Below, piece after piece: positions 11,157 through 36,874 of a stretch of 36,874 nucleotides of DNA. The position numbers and the translations under genes were made by a program. Position 1 is the first letter of the stretch. Each line of letters opens with the position of its first letter. Below the pieces are notes generated by a model. The model saw nothing but the letters and a program-made list of their open reading frames with translations. It searched no databases and was not told the DNA's origin. The DNA is from Archangium sp. (GTDB lineage Bacteria > Myxococcota > Myxococcia > Myxococcales > Myxococcaceae): the NCBI GenBank assembly GCA_030695565.1, contig JAUYRZ010000057.1, forward strand, positions 1 through 36,874, given 5' to 3'.

Positions 11157-11244
11157 GCCCAGGCCGATACAGCCGGTGCTCACGCAGCGGAAGAGCGGCC
11201 GGCACGAACATCCATCGGCACACGGAGGTTTTGGCCACCGTGGC

Positions 11245-13356
11245 TCAGGCGGCCAGTCGGCTGGCGGCTTCCTTCACCACCGGTTCTTCGGGCGGTGCGA
11301 GGAAGAACTCCAGCGGGCTCGCGACGAAGCGGCGCATGACTGCGCGGGCCAGCGACACCTGGCTGCGAACACCCAGGCCGCGCGCGCGCAGGGCCACCAC
11401 GATGGCAAAGGTGAAGCTGACGCCGAAGTTGATCAACCCGACCAGCGGAATCGAGAGCAGCGCGAGCAGGAAATCGGTGCGCCCGAAAACGGCGGGCCCC
11501 AACTCGACCGCGGCGTACGCGAGCTGACCGGTCACGAAGGTCACGTGCCGCACCTCGAGGGGAATGCCGAGCAGCCCGATCAACATGGGCATGAAGCCCA
11601 GCAGCATGCCGAAGCCCACGTTGCCGCCAAAGCCGCTGGCCTGCTCGGTGAGGAAGCGGGACAGGCGGTTGGCGCGCGAGGCCCCGAACACCCGGCGCAA
11701 GGTGCGGTTGGTGGCGATCGCTCCGGGCAGCTCACGCAGCACGAAGTAGTTTTCTGCAGCGCCGGCGAGCAGGCTGGCGGCCCACAACCACACGCCCGTC
11801 ATGATGGCCGAGAAGATGGTCACGCTGAAGATCGGGTGATGAACGCGAACGATCTTCTCTGCGTATTCAGAGCTCAGCACGTGCTGGCCCATCACCGACT
11901 GGTAGATGAGCCCGATCACGATGGCGAAGGGCATCACCACGAACACGTTGCCCAGCAGCGCGGTGAACTGGGTGCGGCTGGCGCGCGAGACCAGGTCGAC
12001 CAACGGCGCGAGCTCTGGCTTCTCCTCGTCGCGTTGCGCTTCGATCGCTCCTGCGAGCGTGGCCGCGGTCATCGCCGGCTGCTTGGTGGCCAGCGCGAAG
12101 TGCAGCAGCTGCATCGCCACGAAGCCCCACGCGTAGTTCAAGCCCACGAAGAGCGCGTCGAAGAACGGGGGCGGGTGCGCGAAGCCGATGAAGAACTTGG
12201 TGAAGACCATCACCGCGGTGATCGCCCCACCGCCCGCGGCCGCGTCGAGCATGGCCTGCTGCTCGGTGCGGGTCTTCGTCACGTAGTGCTCGCCTGAGCT
12301 GCCGGCCCGCTCGACCACGCGGCGCGCCAGCAAGCGGGTGCTCGATTGGAGGAGCGCGGTGAGCGTCTTGTCGGCCACCGTGCCGCGAATGAGCTCACGC
12401 TCGAGCTGCACCTGTGCCAGCTCGCGCGCTTCTTCGAGCCCGCACAGAATGGTGACCAGGTGAAGCAGGCGCGTGAGCAGCGCGTTGATGAGCTCGAGGC
12501 GGAACACCAGGTCGATGCTGATGCCCGTTTCGTCGAGCGAGGCGGTGACGTCGCGCAGGCATGCCCGGCACGCCGTGATGGTCGCCAGCAACGGCGCGAG
12601 CGGCAGCTCTCCCTTGAGCAGCCCCTTCACGTGCTCCGGCAGCAGCAAGAACGGAGAACTGGCGACCGCGACCGAAGGCATGCGCTTTCTCAGGTCGTCG
12701 CTGATGCCCTGCATGGCGATGCGCGAGGCCAGCAGCACCGCGGCTTCCCGCAGGCCCGGGTCGAGCGCGCGTTTGACCGTCTCCGTGTCGAGGCCCAGCA
12801 TCGTCGACAGGCGCGTGCGCACCGACTCGGGCATCGAGAGCAACCACTCCGCGCGCTCGGGTGAATCGATGAGGCGGCCCAACAACCGGCTCACCTCGCG
12901 GCCCACGGGGTAGGCGGGCAGCAGGTTCTCCGAGAAACGCTCCACCACCTCGCCCCAGAACCCGAAGTTCGAGGGCACACCGGTGTCGGTGAAGAGCATC
13001 GTCGCCGAGCTGCCCATCAACGCCTTGAGCATCACCCCGCGCAGGCGTTCGGCGAACGGCGGGATTTCTTCGGCGGCGGTGAGCAGCAGGCGGGTGCGGG
13101 TGTCGATCTCCCGCTCACCCTCCAGGCGGCCCGGTGCTTCGCCGCGCTCGAACAACCACTGCACGATGTCTTCGAGCCACTCGATGCCGTTGCCGTTGCC
13201 GGTGTCGTCAGCGCTGGCCAGCGCATGCAGCCGGCGGAGCACGCGGTTGTTCGGATCGCTCGAGCCGAAGCGCGTGAGGAACGTGTTTCTGTCGAGCAGG
13301 AGATGCGGGTCCAAGCGGGGCACCCTACCGCTTCCTTCCGCCCGGATTTCGAACAT
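11245..13356 (-). CDS. Gcr-type 'site-specific recombinase' family protein (polytopic membrane protein)
   Basis: A protein of about 703 residues resembling the family named after gonococcal Gcr (Pfam SpecificRecomb). The N-terminal 340 or so residues are soluble and helical. The C-terminal half holds several membrane helices, including G-G-G-A-I-T-A-V-M-V-F-T-K-F-F-I-G-F, V-F-V-V-M-P-F-A-I-V-I-G-L-I and L-S-I-P-L-V-G-L-I-N-F-G-V-S. Between them lies the conserved-looking G-F-G-G-N-V-G-F-G-M-L-L-G-F followed by I-P-L-E-V-R-H-V-T-F-V-T-G. No tyrosine or serine recombinase catalytic motif is seen, so the family name is probably misleading. The ATG at 13356 was chosen over an in-frame GTG at 13371. 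It lies upstream of the FG-GAP gene on the same strand and is divergent from the lipoprotein operon at 13470. Confidence 0.75.
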   Translation of the reverse strand: MFEIRAEGSGRVPRLDPHLLLDRNTFLTRFGSSDPNNRVLRRLHALASADDTGNGNGIEWLEDIVQWLFERGEAPGRLEGEREIDTRTRLLLTAAEEIPPFAERLRGVMLKALMGSSATMLFTDTGVPSNFGFWGEVVERFSENLLPAYPVGREVSRLLGRLIDSPERAEWLLSMPESVRTRLSTMLGLDTETVKRALDPGLREAAVLLASRIAMQGISDDLRKRMPSVAVASSPFLLLPEHVKGLLKGELPLAPLLATITACRACLRDVTASLDETGISIDLVFRLELINALLTRLLHLVTILCGLEEARELAQVQLERELIRGTVADKTLTALLQSSTRLLARRVVERAGSSGEHYVTKTRTEQQAMLDAAAGGGAITAVMVFTKFFIGFAHPPPFFDALFVGLNYAWGFVAMQLLHFALATKQPAMTAATLAGAIEAQRDEEKPELAPLVDLVSRASRTQFTALLGNVFVVMPFAIVIGLIYQSVMGQHVLSSEYAEKIVRVHHPIFSVTIFSAIMTGVWLWAASLLAGAAENYFVLRELPGAIATNRTLRRVFGASRANRLSRFLTEQASGFGGNVGFGMLLGFMPMLIGLLGIPLEVRHVTFVTGQLAYAAVELGPAVFGRTDFLLALLSIPLVGLINFGVSFTFAIVVALRARGLGVRSQVSLARAVMRRFVASPLEFFLAPPEEPVVKEAASRLAA

Positions 13357-21924: not shown

Positions 21925-23670
21925 TTGCACCTGGGTCGGCAGGTAGGGGTTACTCCGCGCGACGTGACTGCCGAACTCGCCGACGGAGAAGAGACCCAGG
22001 TCAAGGGCTCGGGCTCCTCCATCTACACGCTGAAGAACAGCGGGGGCGTGTACTCCTGCACCTGCCCTGCGTGGCGAAACCAGAGCCTCGGCCTCATCCG
22101 CACCTGCAAACACCTGCGCGCCTTCCGCGGTGACGACGCGGAGATCGCGCGCCTCGGCTCATCTGCCAACCTCACCGGCCGCCCTCCGAAACCGCCGAAG
22201 CCCCCGAAGGCGCCCGGCGACAACACCCCCGACGATGATGACGACGAAGGGCCGCCCGTTCTCCTCGCGCACAAGTGGGAGAACGACGTCGACCTCACCG
22301 GCTGGTGGCTCTCCGAGAAGCTCGACGGCGTGCGCGCGTATTGGGACGGCGAACGGTTCATCTCGCGCCTGGGCAACGAGTTCTTCGCCCCGAAGTGGTT
22401 CACCGCGGCGCTGCCGAAGTCACCGCTCGATGGCGAACTCTTCGGCGGCCGCAAACAGTTCCAGCGCACCGTGGGCATCGTGAAGCGTCAAGACGCGTCG
22501 GATCTCTGGAAGGAGCTCCAGTACGTGGTCTTCGACGCGCCTTCCCACGGCGGTGTCTTCGAAGAACGCGTGGCTTTCATCGAAGCGACGCTCACCACGC
22601 TCGACGTGAAGTGGCTGGTCGCGCACAAACACGAGCTCTGCAACGGCACCGAACACCTGCGCGCCGAGCTCGCGCGCGTCGAAGGGCTCGGCGGCGAAGG
22701 CCTGATGGTCCGGCAGCCGAGGTCTCGCTACGAGGCGGGGCGCTCCAACACGCTGCTGAAGGTGAAGAGCTTCCACGACACCGAAGCGCGCGTGCTCGGT
22801 CACGTCGCTGGCCTGGGCCGCCACAAGGGCCGGCTCGGTGCGCTGCTGGTCGAGCTGCCCGACGGCACGCAGTTCAACGTGGGCACCGGCTTCAGCGACG
22901 TCGAGCGCGAGAACCCTCCGAAGGTGGGCTCGATCATCACCTTCCGCTATCAAGAGCTGTCGAACTCCGGCACGCCGCGTTTCCCCAGCTACATCGGTGA
23001 ACGCATCGACGGCACGTTCCACAGCAACGCCACCATTCGCCGCGTCGAAGGCGTGACGCCGAAGAAGTCTGCCGCTTCCGCTCCACCCCCACCTGCAGTC
23101 GTGAAACGAGGAAACATGCCGACCCGCCGCTTCGAGATGACCGATGGTGACACGCGCTATTTCTGGGAAGTCGAGTCGAACGGCTCGAAGCAGAAGGTTC
23201 GTTTTGGGACCTTCGAAGAGAAGGAGAAGCTCTTCGAAGACGACGATGAAGCGCGTGAGAACACCGAGAAGAAGATCGCTGAGAAGCTGGGCAAGGGCTT
23301 CCAGGAAGTCGGCGGTGGTGCCGCAGCCGCGCCCGCGAAGAAGAAGAGCCCGTTCGATGACGAAGAAGATGACGCGCCGGCTCCCGCTGCCGTGAAGAAG
23401 GCGCCGGCCCCTTCTGCTCCGGCTGCGTCGAGCGGCGGTAAGTCGTCGAAGTCCGGTGAAGCAGGCGCGCGGTACTTCGAGTTCATCGAAGGCAGCTCCG
23501 CCAAGTTCTGGGAGATCCGCGTCGAGGGCACCACCTTCTACACGCGCTACGGGAAGATCGGCACCGACGGGCAGATGACCCAGAAGGACTTCGACTCCGA
23601 CGAGAAGACGCAGTCCGAGGCGAACAAGCTGATCGCCGAGAAGACCAAGAAGGGCTACGCGGAAAAGTAA
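21925..23670 (+). CDS. SWIM zinc finger - LigE-type ATP-dependent DNA ligase - WGR - WGR fusion
   Basis: Seals DNA nicks using ATP, as judged by an intact ligase core. In order: a SWIM zinc finger C-T-C-x13-C-K-H (Cys45, Cys47, Cys61, His63); a Pro/Lys and Asp linker (86-110); the nucleotidyltransferase domain with motif I E-K-L-D-G (adenylated Lys132), motif III L-D-G-E-L (168-172), motif IV G-G-E-G-L-M-V-R (256-263) and motif V L-L-K-V-K (277-281); an OB domain to about 365; WGR 1 (400-460, degenerate signature) and WGR 2 (516-580, R-Y-G-K-I-G). The core resembles the small LigE class, normally 230-280 residues with a signal peptide; no signal is seen here. The start is TTG 21925 or GTG 21964, neither with a strong ribosome site. 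The stop overlaps the next ATG by one base. WGR domains occur in PARPs and bind DNA. Confidence 0.88.
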   Translation: MHLGRQVGVTPRDVTAELADGEETQVKGSGSSIYTLKNSGGVYSCTCPAWRNQSLGLIRTCKHLRAFRGDDAEIARLGSSANLTGRPPKPPKPPKAPGDNTPDDDDDEGPPVLLAHKWENDVDLTGWWLSEKLDGVRAYWDGERFISRLGNEFFAPKWFTAALPKSPLDGELFGGRKQFQRTVGIVKRQDASDLWKELQYVVFDAPSHGGVFEERVAFIEATLTTLDVKWLVAHKHELCNGTEHLRAELARVEGLGGEGLMVRQPRSRYEAGRSNTLLKVKSFHDTEARVLGHVAGLGRHKGRLGALLVELPDGTQFNVGTGFSDVERENPPKVGSIITFRYQELSNSGTPRFPSYIGERIDGTFHSNATIRRVEGVTPKKSAASAPPPPAVVKRGNMPTRRFEMTDGDTRYFWEVESNGSKQKVRFGTFEEKEKLFEDDDEARENTEKKIAEKLGKGFQEVGGGAAAAPAKKKSPFDDEEDDAPAPAAVKKAPAPSAPAASSGGKSSKSGEAGARYFEFIEGSSAKFWEIRVEGTTFYTRYGKIGTDGQMTQKDFDSDEKTQSEANKLIAEKTKKGYAEK

Positions 23671-24767
23671 TGGCCACGGCGAAACGTCGTCTGAGCCCAG
23701 CTGACTTCGACGTCGTGCGCGGGGCGGCGCACGACGTGAAGGCCCTTCGTAAGTTCGTCGAACAAGAAGGCGCTGCCGCCACGGTCGTCGTCGAAGAAGC
23801 GCTCGACCGTGGGTCCAGCACGATGCACAAGACGGCGTGGCAGTGTCTGGCTCAACTCGATCCAACGCGCGCCGAGACGAAGGCGCTCGTGATGACGGCG
23901 GGCCTCACGAAGAAGGCGAAAGCGGCGCTGCTGCCGCTGTGGGTCGTCGCCACCACGGGGTGTCTCGATCGCCTCGTCGCGCTGGGCATTGAGGTCTACC
24001 CCGACAAGTTCCCCGAGACGTCGCTCTCGTTCTCGAGAGCGCAGGGCTGGGCCCTGGCGGTGCTGCTGCGGTCACCCGAGGTTGCAACACAAAAACAACT
24101 GCTCCAGGCGTGGTTCGGTCCTTACAACGACGCATCGACCGGGTTCGACCTTCTGCGCGGCGCGCTCGAGCACCCGGCTTTCCTGGTGCGCTCCGAGGCG
24201 CTGCAGCTGTTGATCGGGTCGCGAGACGTCGAAGCGTGCCGCCTCGATTCTCTGCCCGAGGACCTGGTGATCCGCGCGCGGTTCGTGCTGCCGGCCGCCG
24301 AAGCGTTCGATCGATTGAGGCCCTGGTTCGAGAGCAACCCTTCTCAGCGCGGTGCGGTGATCAGAGCGCTCGGCATCCAGCAGGAGTGCGACCCACGTTG
24401 GGTGGAGCTGTTCTCGTCACTCGATGACTCCGCGGTTCGAATGGCCGGGTTGATGGCGACGCGCCGGCCAGAGGCACTCGCGCTGCTCACTCCGTTGATC
24501 CAGCGCATGGAACCAGGTCCTGAACTGCTCACGGCGCTGATGGCGCTGCGCGGCTTTCGTTCGGCAGAGGCGGCGGCGCTGCTGGTGCCGTGGCTCTCGC
24601 GCAGCGAACTCGATGGCAACGCTGCGCTGCTCTCGACCTCGCTTCGGGAGTGCGGCTCGCCTGCAGATGCCGCCGCGCTCGAGGCCGCGGCAGAGCGCAA
24701 CCCGCAGGGCGCCTTGTTCTATCGCGAGGCCATCGCCCACATCGAGGCGCGCCACCCGAAAGGCTGA
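23670..24767 (+). CDS. HEAT-like repeat protein
   Basis: A 365-residue soluble protein of helical hairpins. Its ATG overlaps the ligase stop codon by one base (TAATG), so the two are co-translated. The first third is a helical region I cannot name. From about residue 150 it reads as HEAT-like repeats: L-L-R-G-A-L-E-H-P-A-F-L-V-R-S-E-A-L-Q, E-L-F-S-S-L-D-D-S-A-V-R-M-A-G-L, A-L-M-A-L-R-G-F-R-S-A-E-A-A-A-L-L. No enzymatic motif, zinc site or membrane segment is visible. Such repeats form curved protein-binding scaffolds. Its place between the ligase fusion and two much larger helical-repeat proteins suggests it is an adaptor of the same complex. The family is unnamed as far as I can tell. Confidence 0.78.
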   Translation: MATAKRRLSPADFDVVRGAAHDVKALRKFVEQEGAAATVVVEEALDRGSSTMHKTAWQCLAQLDPTRAETKALVMTAGLTKKAKAALLPLWVVATTGCLDRLVALGIEVYPDKFPETSLSFSRAQGWALAVLLRSPEVATQKQLLQAWFGPYNDASTGFDLLRGALEHPAFLVRSEALQLLIGSRDVEACRLDSLPEDLVIRARFVLPAAEAFDRLRPWFESNPSQRGAVIRALGIQQECDPRWVELFSSLDDSAVRMAGLMATRRPEALALLTPLIQRMEPGPELLTALMALRGFRSAEAAALLVPWLSRSELDGNAALLSTSLRECGSPADAAALEAAAERNPQGALFYREAIAHIEARHPKG

Positions 24768-25207: not shown

Positions 25208-27871
25208 ATGGCTGATCGTCCCGACATCACGCTCGACGACTTGAAGACGCTGGCCCGAGGGCAGGCGCCTGATCTCGCCCAGGCCATCATTCATTTCGCA
25301 GCCCAGCCGCAGCCTGCTCCCGAGCACGTGCCTGAAGGCGCGCTCACGCCGGAGGCCTTCGAGCAGCAGCTCAAAGACGCGCAGAAGGAATACCGCGAGT
25401 CGGTCAAGCGCATGAAGGTCGCGCTGCTCTGGCGCCGCTACCTCACGCAGCCCGACCCGCCGCCTTCCGGCAAGTACCTGCTCGCCGACTTCCTGCTCGA
25501 GCTGTACCTCGAGGGGGGCGAGCCCAACCGCGCCACGCTGCTCGAGGTCGCTCGCAGCGCACCGCTGGCCCGCGGGCTGTGGGGTGGTCTCAAGCGCATC
25601 TACAAGCTCGCCGAAGAACGTCAGGACGCGCTCCTGTTCGGCGCGATCCTCGGCCGGCTCGAGTCGAACACCGGCGGTGGCGGCGCCGTCACCCGCGGCA
25701 CCATCGTCTATCTGCAGCGCCGCGGCTGGCGTTACCTGCGCAACCTCGCGCGCGCCGTGCCCGAGCTGTACCCCGTGTTCGCCACCGCCACGCTCAACCA
25801 GCTCTCCCAGGACGCCAGCACCTGGCAAGGCGTCGCCTGCGGGCGGATCATCAACGCGGGCGAGGAGTACTTCGAGAACGCGTGGAAGCTCTCACCTGAT
25901 CCGTTGATGGTGCTGCTGGAGACCGCGCAGCAGAACGACGTGGCGAAGTTCGCCATCGCCAAGCTCAAGAAGCACTTCCCGCAGCAGCTGCGCCAGACGA
26001 ACGTGGCCTGGCTCTCGCGGCTCGCGCAGCGGCCGATCGCTGCGGTGCACGAGCTGCTGGTGGACATCCTGGTCAACACGCCGGAGCTCCACCCCGCAAA
26101 GCTGGAGGGCCTCGGCCTCAAGCCGGCGGTGCTCTCGCTGCTGCTCTCTCCGTCGCCGGCCGCCCGCAAGTACGCCATCGAATACGCGCGCGCGCACGCC
26201 ACCGAACTGCCGCCTGCCGTGGTGGTCGAGTACGCGCTCACCGGCGAATCAGACACCCGCGCCTGGGCCATGTCGGTGCTCGAGACGGTCAGCGCCAAGA
26301 CGCTCGGCTTGCCGCTGCTCTCGAAGTTGCTCGCGGGCCAGAGCACCTCGGCCTGGGCGATCACCCGCCTCGAGTCTCAGTTCGATCGCGCTGAGCTCAC
26401 CGACGCGTTCTTCGTCGAGCTCGTCTACGGCACCGGCACGCAGCGTGACTGGGCGCGCAAGTACCTGGCGGAGCGCGTGAAGCAGAGCGATCAGCTCGCG
26501 AACTTCATCAAGGCGCTCTTCGCAGACCCGCGCCGGCAAGACGTGGCGCTCGCTGCGCAGCTGGTGCGTTTCACCCGGCAGTTGATGCCGCTCGTCGCGC
26601 CCGAACATCTCGGCGCTCCGTGGTTGATGGCGCTGTTGGTCGATCGGCCTTTCCGCGAAGTCGCCGACGAAGCATTGCGCCGCGCGAAGTCGCTGCCCGG
26701 TCTCGACATCGAGGCGGTGAAGGGGCTGGTGTTCGATCGTTCGGTGCGAGAGCTCGCGCTGCACCTGCTCTCCACGCACGCCAGCTTCAAGATCATCGGG
26801 CTGCCCTGGCTGCTCGCGCTCGCCCGCCGCACGGATCCCACGCTGTCTGGGTTCGCCACCCGCACGTTGCTCGGTCAGGTCGACCCGCGCGACTTCGGTG
26901 ACGGCGACGTCGATCGCGGCGTGAAGCGGCTGCTCGAGCTCGCCACCGGCGCGAAGGAGCCCGACCCGGTTCGCCTGTTCGCGCAGACCTATCTGCGTTG
27001 CCACCACCCCACGGTCGGTCCGCAGCAGCCCGAAGCGGTGGCCAACGCCATCACGCCCAGGCTGACCCTCGCCCAGTACCAGCCCGAGCCGTACTGGAAG
27101 GCGCTGTTCGATTCGCGCGCCGACGTGCGCCGTTTCGCGAGCGTGATCACCAGGGCCGAGCTGCGCCGCTGGGGCTACCACCTGCGCGTGTACGAGCTGG
27201 CCGACAGCGAACACCGCGAAGTGCGCACCCTCTGCACCAACGCGCTGGAGAACGCGGGTTCACCCACCGCCGAGCTCGCCTGCACCTTGACGGTCGAAGA
27301 GATCGATCCCGCGCAGGTGTTCCGGCTCACCGAGAGCCGCATTCGCCAGAGCCGCGAAGTCGCGATGGAGCTGATCGCGCGTCACTACGCCCGCCTCGGT
27401 GGCCCCGAGCGCCTCGCGTGGTTGATGGAGAGCGCCGATCGCAGCGTGCGCACCATGGCCGTGCGCATGTTGTGGGAACGCCATCGTCCCGCATCGCTGC
27501 CTGAAGGCTGGAAACCCAAAGGTCCGCAGAAGTTGCCCGAGCACGCCGGCCGTTTTGCCGACGTTCGAGTGCTCCAGGAGTTCCTCCGCACCTTGTTGTT
27601 CGGTCTTCCTCCCGGCCGCAGCCCCGATGCACGTGAAGGTGAGCTGCCTCGCCGCGCGTCGGGAGCCCAGGCCGCCAAACGCCGCGCCATCGAAGCGGCC
27701 CGCGCGCTCGCCGTGGAAGACGAAGGGTTCGCGCGCGCGGTCTCTCCTCTCTTCCTCGAGTTCTCGGGGAGCATCGCGCGGGGCGAGTGGCAGGCGTGCC
27801 TCGCCGCGCTCACCAGTCTCAAGGTCGCTCATCCGCACCTCGACGTCGGTCTTCACCTGAAGGGGGGCTGA
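25208..27871 (+). CDS. Large helical (HEAT-like) repeat protein
   Basis: An 887-residue soluble protein built almost wholly of helical hairpins. Near residues 90-200 there is a distinctive block: L-A-D-F-L-L-E-L-Y-L-E-G-G-E, G-L-W-G-G-L-K-R-I-Y-K-L-A and Y-L-Q-R-R-G-W-R-Y-L-R-N-L-A. HEAT-like units follow, such as P-A-A-R-K-Y-A-I-E-Y-A-R-A-H-A and R-E-V-A-M-E-L-I-A-R-H-Y-A-R. The last 100 residues have a basic linker (A-K-R-R-A-I-E-A-A-R-A-L-A) and a helical end. No enzymatic motif, zinc finger or WGR is seen. A good ribosome site precedes the ATG, and only four bases separate its stop from the giant WD40-HEAT-WGR gene, so the two are surely co-expressed. The Y-L-x-R-R-G-W-R-Y-L motif would be a useful search handle. 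Likely a scaffold of the WGR/SWIM system. Confidence 0.82.
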   Translation: MADRPDITLDDLKTLARGQAPDLAQAIIHFAAQPQPAPEHVPEGALTPEAFEQQLKDAQKEYRESVKRMKVALLWRRYLTQPDPPPSGKYLLADFLLELYLEGGEPNRATLLEVARSAPLARGLWGGLKRIYKLAEERQDALLFGAILGRLESNTGGGGAVTRGTIVYLQRRGWRYLRNLARAVPELYPVFATATLNQLSQDASTWQGVACGRIINAGEEYFENAWKLSPDPLMVLLETAQQNDVAKFAIAKLKKHFPQQLRQTNVAWLSRLAQRPIAAVHELLVDILVNTPELHPAKLEGLGLKPAVLSLLLSPSPAARKYAIEYARAHATELPPAVVVEYALTGESDTRAWAMSVLETVSAKTLGLPLLSKLLAGQSTSAWAITRLESQFDRAELTDAFFVELVYGTGTQRDWARKYLAERVKQSDQLANFIKALFADPRRQDVALAAQLVRFTRQLMPLVAPEHLGAPWLMALLVDRPFREVADEALRRAKSLPGLDIEAVKGLVFDRSVRELALHLLSTHASFKIIGLPWLLALARRTDPTLSGFATRTLLGQVDPRDFGDGDVDRGVKRLLELATGAKEPDPVRLFAQTYLRCHHPTVGPQQPEAVANAITPRLTLAQYQPEPYWKALFDSRADVRRFASVITRAELRRWGYHLRVYELADSEHREVRTLCTNALENAGSPTAELACTLTVEEIDPAQVFRLTESRIRQSREVAMELIARHYARLGGPERLAWLMESADRSVRTMAVRMLWERHRPASLPEGWKPKGPQKLPEHAGRFADVRVLQEFLRTLLFGLPPGRSPDAREGELPRRASGAQAAKRRAIEAARALAVEDEGFARAVSPLFLEFSGSIARGEWQACLAALTSLKVAHPHLDVGLHLKGG

Positions 27872-27875
27872 GCCC

Positions 27876-30800
27876 ATGGCCACCTACGCAATCGGACACC
27901 TCGAGCAGGTCCGCGCGCTCGCTGCGAGCGGCCGCCTCCTCGCCATCGGCGGTACCCGTTCGGAAGCCACCTCGGCGGTCACGCTCTTCGATGCAGGCAC
28001 GCGGAAGGTCACGCGCACGCTCGCCCTTCCCACGCACACGGCCGCGCTCGCCTTCTTCGGTAAGCAGCTGGTGGTCGGTGGCGTCGACGGTCAGCTCCAC
28101 CGTTTCGACTTCGCTTCGGGTGAATCGGCCGGTGCTGCGCTGGCGCATCAAGGCGGCGTCACGGCGCTCAGCGCGACGGTCACGCTGCTGGCCAGCACGG
28201 GCGTCGACGGCAAGGTGATCGTCTGGGCCGACGGCGCGAAGAAGTACGAGTTCATGGCGCCGGGCCCTCAGCGCGCGGTGGCACTCGATCCCGCGAACGG
28301 CCGCGTGGCCGTCGCTGGTGATGACGGCATCGTGCGCCTCTTCACCTTCGGCCAGAAGCAGCCGCGCGAGATGGAAGGGCACCGGGGTGCGGTGACGGCG
28401 CTCGCGTTCACGCCGCGTGATGGCCGCCTCGCGTCGACCGGTGACGATGGCACCGTTCGGTTCTGGTACCTCGAAGGCGCAGTCGAGTGTGAAGTGCGGG
28501 GTGAAGGCGACACGGGTCACGCCGGTGGTGCGACCGCGTTCGCGTTCCTGCCTTCTCCGAAAGACGGCGCGAAGGACACGAGCGATCGCCTCGTCTCCAC
28601 GGGCCTCGACGCGAAGATTCGCACCGTGCGGCTCGACGACAAGAAGCGCAGCAAGACCTTCGATGCCGACGGTCCACAGCGCGCGCTCGCATTGGTGGAG
28701 AGCGATCCGCGCAAGGCGTCGATCGAGATCGTCACCGGCGGTGATGGCCGCAAGCTGACGTTCCTCGAGGTGGGCGTCGAAGGGGCGCTCCCCGACTCGG
28801 CGCATCAGGGGCTCGATGGTTTCACCACCTGGTCTGCGCAGCTGAAGAGCGCGCAGCGGGCGGCGAAAGAAGTGCTGGCGAAGGACCTGCCGAAGATCCC
28901 CGAAGCCGAGGTGTTGCCGCTGCTCGAGGCGCTCGCGGGCGATCGCGAAAACCCCGTTCGCCTCACGCTGGCGAAGACGCTCAAGGACAAGCCGCGCAAG
29001 GACACCCGGGCGCTCCTCCGCAGCCTGGTGAAGGACAAGGATGCCGGCGTGGCCCAGGCCGCGCTCGAGTCGCTCGCCGTCACCGAAGACCAGCCGTTCT
29101 TCGCGTATCGCGAGGGGCTGCGTGCCGCGGTTCCTTCGGTGCGCATCTCGGCGCTGAAGGCTCTCGCACCGCTCTACCCGGCGGTGCCGTTGGTGCCCGC
29201 GTTGGTCGCGGGTCTGCTGAAAGATGCCGACCCCACCGTGCGCATGTCGGCGCTCGACGCGCTGCAGGCGGTGTTTCCGCAAGGTGTCGAAGCGCTGGTC
29301 ACGGGCTTCGAGAAGGGCACCGCCGACGTCCGCGCCGAAGTGCTGGTGCGCGCGTTGTTCCAGGGCCAGTTGCCCTCCTTGCAGTCGATCTCCGGCCGCG
29401 CGCTCGATGATGAGAACGTGGTCGTGCGCCAGGTCGCCTTCGTGGTGCGCGTGCTGGAGCGCCCCTCACTCGGCCTCCTGCTCGAGAAGATGCTCGAGCT
29501 GCCCGAAGTTCTGCGCCGCGCGAACGGCGGCAAGGACCCGAACCCCGAACAGCTCACCGCGCTGCGCGGAAAGCTGCAGCTCACCGGCAAGCCAGCCGAG
29601 CTGACCCAGGACGATCTGACGCCGCTGCTGGTGGCCATGTCGGCGCGCGCGACGGACGTCGCCAGCCGGGGCGCCGTGGGCCTGCTCGTCGCGTCGAACG
29701 ACGTGCGTGCGGTCAGCGCTTTGTTGCAGCTCTCCCGTGAAGAGCCCGCGGCGCACCGCGTGTGGGTCGCGCAGACCCTTTCTTCTCTGGCCGATCCGCG
29801 CGCCCGGCAGCGCGTCGCTTCGATGACCGACGACAAGGACGCGGCGGTTCGCGCGGCCGCTGCCGATGGTCTGACCAGGCGGAAGGACGAAGCCTCTCCG
29901 CTGGAGTTCGCGGGCATTCTATTGCGCTCGGCCTACGAGGACATGCGCAAGCGTGGCCTCACGCGCCTGGTCGCGGTGCCTCAGAAGGATCGAACCGAAG
30001 AGGCCGAGACGCTGCTCGGTCACGCGCTCGAAGACGAAGCGGGTGGGGTGCGCAGCGAAGCGTTCAAGACGCTCTGGGCGTGGCACGAGAAGGACGCCAC
30101 CGCCGCGATTGATCGTGCGCTGCTGTGCCGGTTCGCGGATCTCCGCCTCGCGGCCGTGCGTCAGCTCGCGCTGATCGCCAAGGTCCCCAACGACGATGAT
30201 CAGCCGGCGCCGAAGAACACTCCGGCGTGGATTTTGGATCGGCTGGAAAAGGCCGTCGTCGATCGCGATGCGTCCGTCGGCGAAGCAGCGGTCACCTCGC
30301 TCGCGCGCCTGCTCGGCAAAGACGCCGCGAAGCCCTGGCAGAAGGGTCTCGAGTCAGAGGCCATCGCCACTCGCATTCTCGCTGCGCGACGTGCCGCGGG
30401 GTTGGCCGGCAAGGCCGAAGCCGAGTCGTTGCGTTCGCCGTTGGTGAAGGCGCTGACCGATCTCTCCGTGCCGGTGAAGCTCGCCGCCATCGAGAGCGTG
30501 GACGCGTTGGTGAAGAACGACGCCGGGCCGCTCACCGCGGGGCTGATGGGCGATTCGCTCGAGCTGCGTGTGCGTTCTGCCGAGCTGCTCGCGCTGCGCG
30601 GCGAAGAGATCATCATCGAGCCAATGCGCGGGTTCGTGCTCGACGCCGAGCTCAAGCTCCGTCACCCGGCTGCGTATCTCGAGCCGCTGCGCGCCCGTGC
30701 CGTCGGTGCGCTCGCGACCCTGGGCAGCCCTCGCACCGCGGGGCTCTTCGCCGAGCCGTTGCTCAAGGATGAGAACCCGGCCGTGCGTGAACAGGCCGCG

Positions 30801-33800
30801 CGTGGCTTGTGCAACTCGGGTCACGAAGCGTTCCTGCTCGACGCGCTCAGCCACGCTGACGTCGCGGTGCGCAGCTGGGCCGCTGAAGGCCTCGCTCGGC
30901 TCGGCGATGATCGAGGCCTCGCCGTGCTCACGGGCACGCTGAAGGATCAGCACCTGCCGATCCGTGAAGGCGCGCTGCGTGCGCTCGTCGCGCTCGGCCC
31001 CGCGGGTGACAACGCGCTCTTCCTCGGGCTCGACGACGCCGACGACTACCTGTCGGACACGTTCTTCGCGACGCTGCTCGCGCGCGATCTGCGGGCGGCG
31101 CGTGAAGGCAATGAGCCTGAGCTGCTCACGGCTGCACTCTCTGCCCAGCGCCCCGACGTGCGCTACGCCGCGGCCCGTGCGCTCGAGCTGCGCGCTGACG
31201 TGAGCTCGTACACGGAGCTCCTGCTCGCCGCCGTCAGCCCTCCGAAACTGGAGAAGGCGGGCGACATGAAGGACTGGCCTGAAGAGGGTGAGCGCGAGCG
31301 CGCGGCCATGCGGCTGCTGCAGTTGCTCGGCGCCGACACACCTCAGGCCCGGTACGCAGCGGGCCAGGCGCTGCTCCTGCGACGAAAGCCGCTCGAGTTC
31401 TTCGCCGAGGTGAAGCGGGTCGTCACGATTCGCCCCGCTTCCGAGACCACCGTTCCCGATACCAACCAGCGTGGCCGTGCGGGCACCGATGCGGTCGCTC
31501 GCAAGGACTGGCTGCGGAAGTTGTTCGCGGGCGCGTCTTCGAAGGTCCCTGCGTCTGACTCGAAGGAACTCGAAGTGCGCCGGTGGATTTCGTTCGGCGC
31601 GTACGTCGGGCTGCTCCGGCTCTCCAATCCTGATGAGACGGTGCGCCGGGTGCGGCGTGACGTGGTCGACCGGATGATCGAGATGGCGGGCGCCGGGAGC
31701 CCCAAGCCGGCTTCCGTGATCCCCGCGCTCGTGCGCGCGCTCGACGATGAAGACGCGCTGGTGCGCAAGAAGACGATGGCGGGTCTCTCGAAGTTGCTCG
31801 AGGCGACTCCCGACGTGGCGCTGCGGCACGCCTTGTCTTCCGCTTCGGCTGACGTCGGCCTGCTCGCGCTCGCGCAGTTGAACGAGCGTGGTGAAGCGGC
31901 CCGGCCGTGGTTCATCGACGCTTTGTCTTCCAACGTGGTCGAGGTTCGTCAGCAGGCGTTCGTCTTGCTGGAGCGCAATGTCGGCCCCGGCAGTCTCGAC
32001 GCGTTGATGGCGGCGCTGGCGAGCCCGCACTCTGACCTGCGCCTGGGCGTGTTGCAGAAGCTCGCCGCCAGCCAGGACGCGCGCGTGTTGCCTGCGTTGC
32101 GCAAGGCGCTGGAGAGCGATCGCGACGACGTTCGCCTGCTCGCCGCGCAGCTGCTCGCCGAGCGCAAGGACGACTCGGCGGTGCCTGCGCTCGCTGCGTT
32201 CCTGGTGCCCGAAGGTCCGTCACTCGGCGCGGCCCGTACTGCGCTGGGCACCTGCGCGACCGACGCCTCAGCCCTCGCGCTGGGCACGCACCTGCAGGAA
32301 CTCGCGGCGATGCCCGCGGCTGCTGATCCCGCTCCGCTGAGCACGCTCAAGCGTGACGCCATCGCGGCGCTCGCTTCGACCCGTCGGGTGGTTGGCCTGG
32401 GCGCACTGCTGGAGCGCTTCGAAGATCCCGCGGCCGACGTGCGGCTCGCTGCGTTCACCGGCGCGCTGTTGCTCGGCAATCACCGAAGGCCTCCGGCGAA
32501 GGGTGCTCCGACTCGTGAATACCTGAAGGACGAGAAGCGGTACCCACGCAACCCGGCCGCCGTGCTGCAGACGCTCCGCGCGGGCGTGAAGGCGAAGGAC
32601 CCGATTCTGCGCAGCTCGGCTGCTCGCGAGCTCGACGTCGGCGTGGAGCCGGAGAACGACACGCTGCTCATCTCGCTGTTCGGCGATCGCGACGTCGCGA
32701 CCCGCGTGCAGGCCGTGGGCAGCTACGCCCAGCGCGTGGAGAAGCACGCCGCGCCCGTCGCCGCGCTCGAGCTGGTGATTGCGCAGGGCGCTCGTGAGCT
32801 GATGCTCAACGCCGCCGAAGGGCTCGCCGCGAAGCAACACGTCGCGTCGCTGCGGCCGCTGTTGCTCTTCACCCGCGCAGGCGAAGTCGAAGAACAGGTG
32901 CGCGCGGTGTTGGCGCTCGGCAACAGCGGGCAAGTCCGCGCGCTGGAAGAGATGGAGCTGCTCGCGGCCGGTGGCACCGAAGAGGCGCCCACCGATGTGC
33001 TCGTGCGTGCGGCGGCCATCGAAGCACTCGGCCGGCTCTACAAGGTGCTCACCGACGTGGAGCAGAAGAAGCGGGTGCTCGAGCTGGTCGAGGCCAGCGC
33101 GCTCGAAGGCAACTTCCGCATGGCGGGCGTGCGCGGCCTGCGTTGGATTGGTGACGATCGTTCGCTGGGCCGGCTGCAGCAGCTCGTCGCGGCCGAAGAC
33201 GATCGCGACGTCGAGGTGCGCAAGGAGGCCATTCGTTCGCTGGCCGTGCTCGCCGATCCTTCGAGCGAGAAGGTGCTCACCCGCGCGCTCACGCAGTGGC
33301 AGTTGGCCGACACTGCGCTGCAGGCGCTCGAGGCCTGCTTCCCGAATGATCCACTCCGCGTGGCGATGAACGCTGCGTCGAGTGAGTTGCCGAACATCTC
33401 GGGTCCTGCGCTGGCGTATTTGCTCGCCGAGGCCGAGCCTGCTCCGCTGTTGGAGCGCCTGGCCAACCCGCGGCTGCGCCCCGACCTGCGCGCGAAGGTG
33501 AAGTACGGCCTGGGCCGCAGGCCGTCGCTGCCGACCGAGGCGTTGGTGAAGTACGCCGGCTCTGAGTTCGCCAGCGTGCGTGACGACATGGCGTGGCTGA
33601 TGGCGCGCCATGCGCTGGCGGGTACGGCGCTGCCCGCGGCGGAGCAGCAGCAGCGCGCGAAGAGCCTGGTGGCTTCGGCGACCAGCACTGCGACGCCTTG
33701 GGCGAAGAGCGTGGGGACCGACAAGGTCGCTGAAGAGAGCGCGTTCTTGCGCTTGCTCTGGGCGGCCACGCTGCACGCTTCGCGCGAAGTGGAAGAGCTC

Positions 33801-34886
33801 GCGGCGAAGTCGTTGTCGGGTGGCTCGCCGGCTCCGGCGAGCGTTCGTGCGGAGTCGGCGCGGGTGCTGCAGAAGGCAGGCGCTGGCGCGGTGCCGGTGC
33901 TCATGCGCGGGGCCAGTGACATCGACGGCGGCGTGCGACGTGCTTCCGTGTCGGCGCTCGTCAAGACGAACGCGGCTCAGGCCACGGCGCTCATCGAGAG
34001 CAGCAAGCCGCTCGACTCGCTCTCCTTCGACGCCGTGAAGGGCGACGCGATGATGCTCGCCACCGAAGCCGCCCGTGCGGTGATGCTGCCCAAGTTGATC
34101 GGTGCCGGCGATCCCGCGGTGCTGATGACCCAGGCCGAGAAGGGCGCCTCTGAAGCGGTTCAGCGCGCGGCGCTGATGGCGCTCGGTCGCATGGGTGGTG
34201 AGTCGGTCGCTGAGTTCCTCGCGAAGCTCGCGTTCAGCGCGGGTGGTGGCGAAGACGGTGACGACGAAGAAGAAGAGGACCAGGACGAAGAAGAGCCCGA
34301 GGAGGATGACGACGACGGGGGAGACGAAGACGAGGACTCCGGTCCCAGCCCCGACGTGTCGATGCCCGGCTCGCGCCGCTTCGAGTTCGAAGAAGACGAC
34401 AGCTCGAAGTTCTGGGAGGTCGTCGTGCAGGACACCATGTGTGTCGTGCGCTTCGGGAAGATCGGCGCCGCGGGGCAGAAGAAGCCCAAGAAGCTCGCGA
34501 CTCCCGAGGCTGCTCAGAAGGAGATGGAGAAGCTCATCAAGGAGAAGACCGGCAAGGGCTACGCAGAGGTGAAGCTGCGCGGCGTGGCCGCTCCGAAGGC
34601 GCTGGCGGCTCCGAAACCGGCGAAGGCGGCCAAGCCTGAGAAGGTGGCGAAGGTCGAGTGGGGCACTCCGGCGCTTCGTGAAGCGGCGTTCAGGGCGCTT
34701 CGGCGCGCTCAGCGCACGAATGCGCGGCGGCAGAACATGCCCAGGTGGTTCACCTCGGAGCAGTTGGTGCAGTTGGCCGCGAACCCGGAGTTGGCCGAGT
34801 CGATGATGCCGGTGGTCGCTGTGGCTCCGGCTCGCGATGATGAGGATGATGGCGATGAGGATTACGACGAGGACGACGATGAGTAA
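27876..34886 (+). CDS. Giant WD40 - HEAT repeat - WGR protein
   Basis: A 2336-residue soluble protein. Residues 1 to about 300 are WD40-type blades, such as L-L-A-S-T-G-V-D-G-K-V-I-V-W-A and the better G-H-R-G-A-V-T-A-L-A-F (from 169) followed by L-A-S-T-G-D-D-G-T-V-R-F-W. From about 300 to 2110 runs a very long array of HEAT repeats, seen as the recurring hydrophobic D-x-x-V-R-x-x-A-A-x-A-L pattern (A-A-V-R-A-A-A-A-D-G-L, P-A-V-R-E-Q-A-A-R-G-L, A-D-V-R-L-A-A-F-T-G-A-L). An extremely acidic linker (about 2125-2160) leads to a WGR domain (2166-2232) with W2180 and R-F-G-K-I-G, closely related to the second WGR of the ligase. A Lys/Ala linker, a helical basic motif near 2266 (A-L-R-R-A-Q-R-T-N-A-R-R) and an acidic tail finish the protein. 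It is probably the central scaffold. Confidence 0.87.
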   Translation: MATYAIGHLEQVRALAASGRLLAIGGTRSEATSAVTLFDAGTRKVTRTLALPTHTAALAFFGKQLVVGGVDGQLHRFDFASGESAGAALAHQGGVTALSATVTLLASTGVDGKVIVWADGAKKYEFMAPGPQRAVALDPANGRVAVAGDDGIVRLFTFGQKQPREMEGHRGAVTALAFTPRDGRLASTGDDGTVRFWYLEGAVECEVRGEGDTGHAGGATAFAFLPSPKDGAKDTSDRLVSTGLDAKIRTVRLDDKKRSKTFDADGPQRALALVESDPRKASIEIVTGGDGRKLTFLEVGVEGALPDSAHQGLDGFTTWSAQLKSAQRAAKEVLAKDLPKIPEAEVLPLLEALAGDRENPVRLTLAKTLKDKPRKDTRALLRSLVKDKDAGVAQAALESLAVTEDQPFFAYREGLRAAVPSVRISALKALAPLYPAVPLVPALVAGLLKDADPTVRMSALDALQAVFPQGVEALVTGFEKGTADVRAEVLVRALFQGQLPSLQSISGRALDDENVVVRQVAFVVRVLERPSLGLLLEKMLELPEVLRRANGGKDPNPEQLTALRGKLQLTGKPAELTQDDLTPLLVAMSARATDVASRGAVGLLVASNDVRAVSALLQLSREEPAAHRVWVAQTLSSLADPRARQRVASMTDDKDAAVRAAAADGLTRRKDEASPLEFAGILLRSAYEDMRKRGLTRLVAVPQKDRTEEAETLLGHALEDEAGGVRSEAFKTLWAWHEKDATAAIDRALLCRFADLRLAAVRQLALIAKVPNDDDQPAPKNTPAWILDRLEKAVVDRDASVGEAAVTSLARLLGKDAAKPWQKGLESEAIATRILAARRAAGLAGKAEAESLRSPLVKALTDLSVPVKLAAIESVDALVKNDAGPLTAGLMGDSLELRVRSAELLALRGEEIIIEPMRGFVLDAELKLRHPAAYLEPLRARAVGALATLGSPRTAGLFAEPLLKDENPAVREQAARGLCNSGHEAFLLDALSHADVAVRSWAAEGLARLGDDRGLAVLTGTLKDQHLPIREGALRALVALGPAGDNALFLGLDDADDYLSDTFFATLLARDLRAAREGNEPELLTAALSAQRPDVRYAAARALELRADVSSYTELLLAAVSPPKLEKAGDMKDWPEEGERERAAMRLLQLLGADTPQARYAAGQALLLRRKPLEFFAEVKRVVTIRPASETTVPDTNQRGRAGTDAVARKDWLRKLFAGASSKVPASDSKELEVRRWISFGAYVGLLRLSNPDETVRRVRRDVVDRMIEMAGAGSPKPASVIPALVRALDDEDALVRKKTMAGLSKLLEATPDVALRHALSSASADVGLLALAQLNERGEAARPWFIDALSSNVVEVRQQAFVLLERNVGPGSLDALMAALASPHSDLRLGVLQKLAASQDARVLPALRKALESDRDDVRLLAAQLLAERKDDSAVPALAAFLVPEGPSLGAARTALGTCATDASALALGTHLQELAAMPAAADPAPLSTLKRDAIAALASTRRVVGLGALLERFEDPAADVRLAAFTGALLLGNHRRPPAKGAPTREYLKDEKRYPRNPAAVLQTLRAGVKAKDPILRSSAARELDVGVEPENDTLLISLFGDRDVATRVQAVGSYAQRVEKHAAPVAALELVIAQGARELMLNAAEGLAAKQHVASLRPLLLFTRAGEVEEQVRAVLALGNSGQVRALEEMELLAAGGTEEAPTDVLVRAAAIEALGRLYKVLTDVEQKKRVLELVEASALEGNFRMAGVRGLRWIGDDRSLGRLQQLVAAEDDRDVEVRKEAIRSLAVLADPSSEKVLTRALTQWQLADTALQALEACFPNDPLRVAMNAASSELPNISGPALAYLLAEAEPAPLLERLANPRLRPDLRAKVKYGLGRRPSLPTEALVKYAGSEFASVRDDMAWLMARHALAGTALPAAEQQQRAKSLVASATSTATPWAKSVGTDKVAEESAFLRLLWAATLHASREVEELAAKSLSGGSPAPASVRAESARVLQKAGAGAVPVLMRGASDIDGGVRRASVSALVKTNAAQATALIESSKPLDSLSFDAVKGDAMMLATEAARAVMLPKLIGAGDPAVLMTQAEKGASEAVQRAALMALGRMGGESVAEFLAKLAFSAGGGEDGDDEEEEDQDEEEPEEDDDDGGDEDEDSGPSPDVSMPGSRRFEFEEDDSSKFWEVVVQDTMCVVRFGKIGAAGQKKPKKLATPEAAQKEMEKLIKEKTGKGYAEVKLRGVAAPKALAAPKPAKAAKPEKVAKVEWGTPALREAAFRALRRAQRTNARRQNMPRWFTSEQLVQLAANPELAESMMPVVAVAPARDDEDDGDEDYDEDDDE

Positions 34887-34931: not shown

Positions 34932-36740
34932 ATGTCGATGAGCTCCGTTCGTGACGTGAAGGTTCAGTACGCCGGCCCCAGCGCGCTCGTCGCTCAAGAG
35001 GGTCGTGCCCAGGTGAACCTGGTGCTCGATGCCTCGCGTGGCCCGGTCGGCGTGCGCGGTACGGTGAAGTCACCTGCGCTCTTCCGCGATGCGTTGATGG
35101 CCGCGTTCGACGTGCTCGGCAGCGACCTTCGCTACAAGCGCAAGGATCTCGCCGTCTACCTCGCCTACCTCACCAAGCAGGGCAAGAAGGCGAACAAGGA
35201 GATCTGGGAAGCCCAGAAGGCCTTCCTCGAACAACAGCTCGGCAACGAAGAGAAGCCACAGCAGGTGCTCGAGCCCGTGCTCACCGTCAGCCCCGATGAG
35301 ATCTCCCTCGAGGTCTTCTCGCGCGACGAGTCGAGCTACGCGCGCCTCTCCCTGCCTTCTTCGATGTTCGAGAAGCGCGAAGCCGCGCACGGCACCACCA
35401 CGCTGTCCGTCGACGAAGCCTTCATCGCCCGCTTCGAGCGCCTGCGCAGCTGGCAGCCGGTCTCTCTCGAGGCCACCAGCCAGCCCGGCAGCACGCCCGT
35501 CTCGACCCGCCAGGTGCCGCTCGCCTGGTTGCGCAACTTCGTGCAGGTGCAGTCGGCCTCCACGTTGCCGGCCGCCGTCGCTGAGCTTTCGCCCATCGAT
35601 CTCTACAACCTGCTCTTCGTGTTGCGGACCCGCTCCGCGAAGAAGCCGCCGCGCGGGCTGCGTTTCGAGCTCGTGCCCGGTGCGCAGCCGCGCCTGGTGA
35701 TCGAGCCGTTCGACATCGTGCTGGAGTGCCACGGCGCGCCGTACGCGGGGAAGACGCCGCGCGTGGTGCGCATCTTCGGCCGTCAGCGCCTGCTCTCCCT
35801 CGCCCGCGCCCTGCAGCACGTCAAGACGGCCAGGGTGCACTTGATGGGCGCTGGACTGCCGGTGTTCTGGGCGCTCGACTTCGGGCCCGATCGCGGCAGC
35901 CTCACCGTCGGCTTCACCGGGTGGACCGACTCCGGCTGGTCGAGCGCTTCGGCCTTCGACGCGCTCATGCCGCCGGCCAGTGCCGAGGCGCTCGCCGAGA
36001 AGGCGTACGCGCACCTGCTCAAGCACGGCCCCACCACCTTCGACGGCATGGTGCGCGAGCTGGGCGCTCCCGCCAAAGAAGTGCGCGCGGCGCTGCAGCT
36101 CGAGTGTCTCAAAGGGCGCATGCTCTTCGACCTGGTCAAAGCCGAGTACCGCCCCCGCCAGCTGCTCGACGCGCCCATCGACGTGGCGCAGATCCGCTTC
36201 GGAGGCGAACGCGAGAAGCTGGCGCATCGCCTGCTCGAAGGCGCTGGCGCCGTGCGGCTCACCAAGGTGCACGACCTCGGCAGTGAAGGCACCGAGCTCT
36301 CCGGCGAGGTGGAGGATCTCGAAGCCCGACGCACCTTCACGCCCAGCTTCACCCTCGACCCCGAAGGCCGCGTGCGCGGGGCGGGCTGCACCTGCCTGCA
36401 CTTCAAACGTGCCGGCCTGCGCGAAGGCCCCTGCGAACACCTGCTCGCGCTGCGCATCTTCCACCAGCGCCGGTTGCTGCACGACGAAGAGCTGCGGCAG
36501 ACCGCCGAAGGCCGCGCGCTCATTCGTGCCGAGACGCGCACCTTCGTGCGGCGCGAGACGGGCAAGGAGCTCGTCTACCGCGTCTCGCTCGACGACAAGC
36601 TGGTGCGGGTGATGTGGGGCCCGCGCAGTGAAGAGCCCCGGCAGCAACGCACCTGGTTCGACTCCGATGCCCAGGCGCGCGAGGCGTACTTCGCTCGACT
36701 CGATTCACTCACCCAAGACGGCTTCATCGACGCAGGTTGA
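34932..36740 (+). CDS. SWIM zinc-finger protein with probable winged helix
   Basis: A 602-residue soluble protein. Residues 1 to about 340 form a mixed alpha/beta region without a name I can give (landmarks: L-R-Y-K-R-K-D-L-A-V-Y-L-A-Y-L and R-V-V-R-I-F-G-R-Q-R-L). About 353-410 looks like a winged helix: A-Y-A-H-L-L-K-H-G-P-T-T-F-D-G-M-V-R-E-L followed by V-R-A-A-L-Q-L-E-C-L-K-G-R. A SWIM zinc finger lies at 486-503: Cys486-T-Cys488-x12-Cys501-E-His503, the canonical C-x-C-x(n)-C-x-H form. ATG 34932 is followed by an in-frame ATG two codons later; the ribosome site is well placed for the first. From memory, E. coli YehQ is also a SWIM protein, encoded near a WGR protein and a MoxR ATPase. 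It is the last gene before the window edge, so further partners may follow. Confidence 0.85.
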   Translation: MSMSSVRDVKVQYAGPSALVAQEGRAQVNLVLDASRGPVGVRGTVKSPALFRDALMAAFDVLGSDLRYKRKDLAVYLAYLTKQGKKANKEIWEAQKAFLEQQLGNEEKPQQVLEPVLTVSPDEISLEVFSRDESSYARLSLPSSMFEKREAAHGTTTLSVDEAFIARFERLRSWQPVSLEATSQPGSTPVSTRQVPLAWLRNFVQVQSASTLPAAVAELSPIDLYNLLFVLRTRSAKKPPRGLRFELVPGAQPRLVIEPFDIVLECHGAPYAGKTPRVVRIFGRQRLLSLARALQHVKTARVHLMGAGLPVFWALDFGPDRGSLTVGFTGWTDSGWSSASAFDALMPPASAEALAEKAYAHLLKHGPTTFDGMVRELGAPAKEVRAALQLECLKGRMLFDLVKAEYRPRQLLDAPIDVAQIRFGGEREKLAHRLLEGAGAVRLTKVHDLGSEGTELSGEVEDLEARRTFTPSFTLDPEGRVRGAGCTCLHFKRAGLREGPCEHLLALRIFHQRRLLHDEELRQTAEGRALIRAETRTFVRRETGKELVYRVSLDDKLVRVMWGPRSEEPRQQRTWFDSDAQAREAYFARLDSLTQDGFIDAG

Positions 36741-36824
36741 AAAGGCACTGAAACGAACCCAAACGAACTTCCCGCCAGAGAGCGAGGTGTCGAGGAACAT
36801 CAGCCTTCGCGCTTCAGTGCGCAG

Positions 36825-36843
36825 GAGCGGCGTTGCGCCGCTC
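36825..36843 (+). terminator. Terminator-like hairpin after the SWIM gene
   Basis: Perfect 8-base arms GAGCGGCG and CGCCGCTC around a TTG loop, 84 bases after the stop of the SWIM gene. There is no T-run after it, so an intrinsic terminator is only a possibility. If real, it would mark the end of the cluster's transcript. Confidence 0.3.
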
Positions 36844-36874
36844 TGGAGATTGGTCCAACACACTCCGCTAGGTA

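Follow-up and report, generated by a model that had tools for sequence, protein, structure and literature searches.

Gene content of the locus

The window, that is, the whole stretch of DNA analysed (36,874 nucleotides from Archangium sp.), is the entire contig C57 of a genome in 134 contigs, and ends 134 bases past a SWIM gene. The genes and features that concern us are these:

21925-23670, forward strand: gene for a SWIM - ATP-dependent DNA ligase - WGR - WGR protein (Pfam ligase and WGR)
25208-27871, forward strand: 887-aa HEAT/ARM protein (PADLOC PDLC02921, HEAT-ARM_XIII, E 6.5e-213)
27876-34886, forward strand: giant protein of 2336 aa, HEAT-ARM_XIII (PADLOC PDLC02919 and homologues)
27876-28865, forward strand: WD40 beta-propeller of the giant protein, about residues 1-330 (Pfam WD40 and propeller models)
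28866-34232, forward strand: HEAT solenoid, about residues 331-2119 (Pfam HEAT_2; all-helical model of the second half)
34233-34670, forward strand: lineage-specific insert made up of an acidic linker, a WGR (34362-34595) and a second linker (alignment, Pfam and our own HMM)
34671-34733, forward strand: terminal basic helix (alignment and model)
34932-36740, forward strand: 602-aa winged-helix/SWIM protein, SWIM_XIII (PADLOC PDLC02972, E 1.1e-146)
36492-36734, forward strand: WGR-fold C-terminus of the SWIM protein (profile comparison and fold)
36771-36874, forward strand: 5' part of the first msr-msd, cut at the contig end (alignment of copies)

The giant protein

Positions 27876-34886 form a single unbroken frame from ATG to stop, with coding-type GC at the three codon positions (0.74/0.49/0.84). 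Pfam detects HEAT_2 in 12 separate stretches of the 2336-aa product (E 3.8e-51), WD40 (E 1.7e-14, the propeller models covering about residues 12-265) and WGR (E 3.7e-15, residues 2171-2232), and the sequence has an acidic linker, a basic helix C-terminal to the WGR and an acidic tail. A first-pass annotation, made from the sequence alone, had described exactly this succession (WD40, some 1800 residues of HEAT repeats, acidic linker, one WGR, basic helix, acidic tail) and was right throughout, both the WD40 and the HEAT signals being recovered by profile searches. Its statement that there is no kinase was also borne out: neither a kinase nor any other catalytic domain is present among 25 of the 26 Pfam families listed. 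In particular, the FAT/PI3K-like kinase domain that would mark a PIKK was not found among the 25 Pfam families listed, and the ADP-ribosyltransferase domain that would mark a PARP was not found by Pfam, which detects only the WGR. A damage-kinase scaffold was rejected because a kinase is absent from the Pfam families listed.

A structural model of residues 1137-2336 (mean pLDDT 55, about 70-84 across much of residues 1297-1646) is built of helix pairs as far as about residue 2119; beyond it come disorder, the strands of the WGR and the terminal helix, in agreement with the architecture first proposed. In the PDB its fold comes closest to designed HEAT repeats (Z 15.5, rmsd 6.4 over 263), with PP2A-A and importin repeats ranking lower; the fold matches listed for this 1200-residue model all lie within model residues ~23-901 and are not informative on the WGR. 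By sequence, the WGR matches PDB entry 2ra8 (E 2.2e-10) and the WGR of PARP3 (E 0.0016). It reads FGK and not WGR, so that DNA binding could be altered.

Identity of the operon

What does such a protein belong to? The window alone does not suffice to understand the ORF, because the contig ends 134 bases past the next gene. Residues 1-2123 of the giant protein match the PADLOC profile HEAT-ARM_XIII PDLC02919 (E 0), and homologous loci supply the reverse transcriptase (RT) gene, which directly follows the SWIM gene in L010, L012 and L013 and lies two genes further in genome G012. The L012 RT matches RT_XIII (PADLOC, E 2.5e-145) and reads YADD, NALVH and VTG; we take YADD, NAxxH and VTG to be the motifs expected in RTs of type XIII retrons. 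The window's own genome has an RT at C21:129987-131432, 367 bases from the contig end and 92% identical to that of L012, and the msr upstream of it is identical to the last 89 bases of the window (36786-36874). The end shared by C57 and C21, together with the RT on C21, indicates that the operon is a type XIII retron split inside a repeated msr-msd. The order of the operon is HEAT/ARM protein (887 aa), giant protein, winged-helix-SWIM-WGR protein (602 aa), msr-msd, RT, and in the window's genome it is predicted from these shared sequences to run contiguously across C57 and C21.

Wherever the contig reaches far enough, the examined loci of this kind all have the giant gene ahead of the SWIM and RT genes, and a WGR-less version is kept with an RT in 11 of 11 loci of what we call the common form (see below). 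The giant protein is almost certainly the HEAT-ARM_XIII scaffold subunit of a type XIII, Mx162-like retron. A role in defence is quite probable for the retron. MolR/YehI WGR proteins presumably combine WGR with DUF4132 and have MoxR/VWA neighbours; DUF4132, MoxR and VWA had no match in the giant protein or the scanned neighbours, and a yeh-type MoxR/VWA cluster was rejected because such neighbours are absent.

The window's genome also has a second type XIII retron (L072, G000:C90:5800-25700), a few kb downstream of rpoB-rpoC, with HEAT-ARM_XIII, SWIM_XIII and a 689-aa RT; a similar locus, L073, occurs in G003. A gene of about 585 aa directly follows the RT in G139, G135 and G136 (L010 21160-22923), its G139 copy having no Pfam match.

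Two forms of the giant protein

Five related genomes also encode the giant protein, four at full length (L010, L011, L012 and L013, 77-90% identity) and one cut at a contig end, so it is not an assembly fusion, a possibility that the first-pass annotation had raised. The RTs of these genomes and the window's (the window clade, six rows) form a fully supported sister group to those of the common form (11 rows). Common-form giants share the WD40 beta-propeller and have 2155-2186 aa without a WGR, except for one annotated from a longer start, at 2426 aa; all 11 C-termini end in a helix like ELRKAAYRAHKRARRA. In an alignment of five window-clade and seven common-form giant proteins, the acidic linker, the WGR and the second linker together form a single insert of about 145 residues ahead of this shared helix, to which the terminal basic helix at 34671-34733 is equivalent. 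The insert is present in all five window-clade proteins whose C-terminus could be read, in none of 11 common-form proteins and in neither of two outgroup homologues.

Was the WGR gained in the window clade or lost elsewhere? The outgroup homologues (G160 and G185, from other families of the phylum) run directly into the terminal helix, which makes insertion the simpler history, although the placement of these two in the tree is unsure (long branches). By the sequence alignment, the WGR of the giant protein is a lineage-specific addition and not a core part, and the basic helical motif after it is the old C-terminus of the protein. The WGR itself is nearly invariant between the two genera, and its flanking linkers vary.

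The linked ligase gene

The gene at 21925-23670 encodes a SWIM-type CxC...CxH, a ligase with KLDGVR, presumably the adenylation motif, and two WGRs (23122-23337 and 23461-23667); it has no PADLOC match. A two-WGR ligase gene lies upstream of the retron in all six window-clade genomes, in four different upstream neighbourhoods (one shared by G000 and G003, one by G135 and G136, and one each in G139 and G009). Among 13 sampled genomes of two genera, the ligase gene, the 887-aa gene and the clade RT occur together in six and are all absent from seven, of which four are <90% complete; one of the 13, G001, has a different RT match. Because the window clade is one lineage, its six co-occurrences are not six independent events. 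A 365-aa HEAT-like gene (23670-24767) lies between ligase and retron in the window and has no counterpart in the other window-clade loci compared.

Ligases with a WGR also occur without such a retron. Of the 96 genomes in the family, 44 further ones have a match to the ligase that lies outside any window-type retron. Of three of these scanned with Pfam, the ligases of G096 and G133 have one WGR and that of G110 has none, and the two single-WGR ligases rule out that WGR ligases are confined to retrons: at E 1e-60 no type XIII RT was matched in G096, G133 is absent among the genomes listed with such a match, and the 887-aa gene was not found in either. In G185, which belongs to another family, a SWIM-ligase-WGR gene is divergent from the retron and a few genes away, and a 343-aa WGR gene adjoins a 915-aa HEAT/ARM gene.

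The msr-msd RNA gene

The part of the msr-msd inside the window holds the a1 repeat and a CAGC priming site at 36801-36804. Thirty copies align across a1/a2, the priming site and the long msd hairpin, each with 24-25 of 25 tested stem positions paired; one copy folds at -204 kcal/mol as against -121 for shuffles (z -13.5). Rfam gave no match for the msr-msd at the gathering score. A CAGC priming site is reported for Mx162 and Sa163 (PMC6868368).

The gene is doubled in four of the six window-clade genomes (G003 and G139 carry both copies on a single contig, and in G000 and G135 they lie on contig ends that face each other); G009 has one copy, and in G136 the contig begins at that site. Common-form loci have one copy in 11 of 11. 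Tandem copies have near-identical msr and different, fully paired stems. They were seen at window 36771-36874, at L012 19050-19680, at L010 19100-19700 and at L094, L097 and L093, and several assemblies break exactly there.

Hypervariability of the msd stems was considered and rejected, as they do not in general change faster than neutral when RT-proximal arms are set against fourfold-degenerate sites: divergence is 0.33 versus 0.33 for G003/G000 and 0.04 versus 0.29 for G009/G136, and it is between genera that the arms differ more than the degenerate sites. Sixteen msd stems contain 21 six-base palindromes where 10.6 are expected (3 of 2000 shuffles as high), a figure that is overstated in that several of the stems are close relatives.

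WGR folds elsewhere in type XIII retrons

Pfam finds no WGR in the SWIM protein at E 0.5. Its C-terminus nevertheless has the WGR fold: residues 534-599, the only part used of a model with an overall pLDDT of 38, best match 2ra8 (Z 9.5, rmsd 1.6 over 66), followed by PARP1 (7.5; 2.1 over 72), PARP3 (6.6; 3.0 over 73) and a further PARP1 match (6.4), unrelated structures scoring Z 5.7 and below. Profile comparison with 11 WGR sequences gave a probability of 81.8, as against 7.5 for the reversed profile and 19.3 for the best of 39 shuffled ones. This C-terminus is found in 11 of 11 common-form genes, in all five window-clade genomes, of six, whose SWIM gene was compared, and in G149, G159, G160 and G185. 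The SWIM protein of every Mx162-like retron examined has it; there was none in the other RT groups examined. In the SWIM proteins of G160 and G149 (L104, L109) the C-E-H zinc ligands are lost, GPTVPM replacing GPCEHM, and the WGR-fold C-terminus is kept.

Further WGRs accompany type XIII RTs. A third lineage (L076-L079) has a WGR gene and a WGR-HEAT gene ahead of SWIM and RT in four of four loci; in L076 a WGR-propeller protein (9746-11482), itself with no PADLOC match, directly precedes the WGR_XIII HEAT protein, SWIM_XIII and the RT. In G149 a small WGR gene begins immediately after the RT stop. L070 has one WGR, close to an RT that belongs to a distant group, and L107 a weak one (1e-5); WGR was not found at loci L056-L069, L071-L074, L080-L082 and L108.

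Proposed mechanism and alternatives

Taken as a whole, these observations are probably best explained by a type XIII retron in which the giant protein is the scaffold, its WGR addresses DNA ends, and the linked ligase shares that target. In other retrons a toxic effector is restrained by the RT and msDNA until triggered by phage, and in PARPs the WGR reads broken DNA. By analogy, the RT and msDNA would keep the accessory proteins bound and in an inactive state, and a core made of both solenoids and the propeller would hold the SWIM protein along with the RT-msDNA. A phage that disturbed the msDNA or its protein contacts would release the assembly, which would then act on DNA and stop growth. 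In the window clade, the WGR on its flexible acidic linker might bind DNA ends or nicks, either in the msDNA duplex or in broken DNA, and the two-WGR ligase might share this target. The DNA-end mechanism of the WGR is in itself doubtful. RT and ligase are the only catalytic domains recognised, with no catalytic effector among the operon proteins, and the common form works without the WGR insert and without a nearby ligase. The first-pass picture, a long solenoid that would bridge DNA (through its WGR) and several partners, fits all the results, the HEAT and WGR matches among them; the WGR, however, is a later addition in one lineage.

The same genes could instead serve the host in DNA damage, with the giant protein as scaffold: WGR solenoid and WGR ligase would then be a pair for break repair that happens to lie beside a retron. 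The SWIM-ligase-WGR genes without a retron in G096 and G133, the divergent ligase of G185 with other genes between it and the retron, and the ligase matches outside window-type retrons in 44 of 96 family genomes are all in keeping with this. The giant protein itself, however, matches a type XIII profile and keeps its place before SWIM and RT wherever the contig allows, and its WGR-less form stays with the RT in all 11 common-form loci; we regard a host damage scaffold as improbable. Alternatively, the insert could lie idle in a tolerated loop and the ligase be kept by synteny alone. That both occur in a single clade, that the common form has neither, and that the insert sits at the solenoid end on disordered linkers would fit such neutral passengers, but the near-invariance of the WGR between two genera amid variable linkers, the persistence of the ligase link across four upstream settings and the recurrence of WGR with type XIII RTs elsewhere make them unlikely. 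An artefact in which several proteins were fused in silico might be suggested by the contig's ending in a repeat; with full-length homologues in four other assemblies and an independent PADLOC model covering nearly the whole length, its probability is negligible.

Returning to the retron scaffold with a DNA-end WGR, one could go further and view Mx162-like and related type XIII retrons in general as DNA-end readers, with the clade's retron both sensing and sealing ends. WGR modules would then have been recruited several times, and the WGR of the scaffold would have come with a dedicated ligase and a second msDNA, sealing acting as an antidote or resetting the signal. We offer this extension, all its parts together, as a speculation that is rather unlikely to hold.

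The kind of retron is already known, Mx162-type retrons being the first found (1984); what is added is, for the clade, the WGR insert, the link to the ligase and the doubling of the msr-msd, and, beyond the clade too, the WGR fold of the SWIM protein, none of which appears in the PADLOC or Pfam matches. The open-access literature searched yielded no paper on retrons with WGR, a ligase or a tandem msr-msd, and no mechanism for type XIII. The repeated recruitment of WGR, together with the linked ligase, offers a testable clue to what type XIII retrons sense or act on, and the doubled msr-msd with unlike stems raises the question whether one RT serves two msDNAs.

Comparison with known systems

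ATM/ATR/DNA-PKcs-type HEAT scaffolds resemble the giant protein in their long HEAT solenoid but have a kinase domain that is absent here. The parallel with eukaryotic damage scaffolds drawn in the first-pass annotation therefore stands as a likeness of architecture; it missed the retron context that the operon, the profiles and the RNA gene provide. PARP1/2/3 and 2ra8, a WGR protein of Bacteroides fragilis, are alike in WGR sequence, the PARPs differing by an ADP-ribosyltransferase domain that was not found in the giant protein. The WGR_XIII lineage (L076-L079) has RT_XIII, SWIM_XIII, HEAT/ARM and WGR in common with the window clade, but there the WGR is N-terminal in a HEAT protein of 1023 aa and also forms part of a separate WGR-propeller protein. 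Compared with the common form, the window clade has the WGR in the giant protein, the upstream ligase-WGR gene and two msr-msd with unlike stems, none of which occurs in the 11 common-form loci. Of the type XIII retron profiles of PADLOC-DB (RT_XIII, SWIM_XIII, HEAT-ARM_XIII, WGR_XIII), the RT, the SWIM protein and both HEAT/ARM proteins find their match. Retron-Mxa1 (Mx162) and Retron-Sau1 (Sa163), as reported in PMC6868368, share the same CAGC priming site and an N-terminally extended RT.
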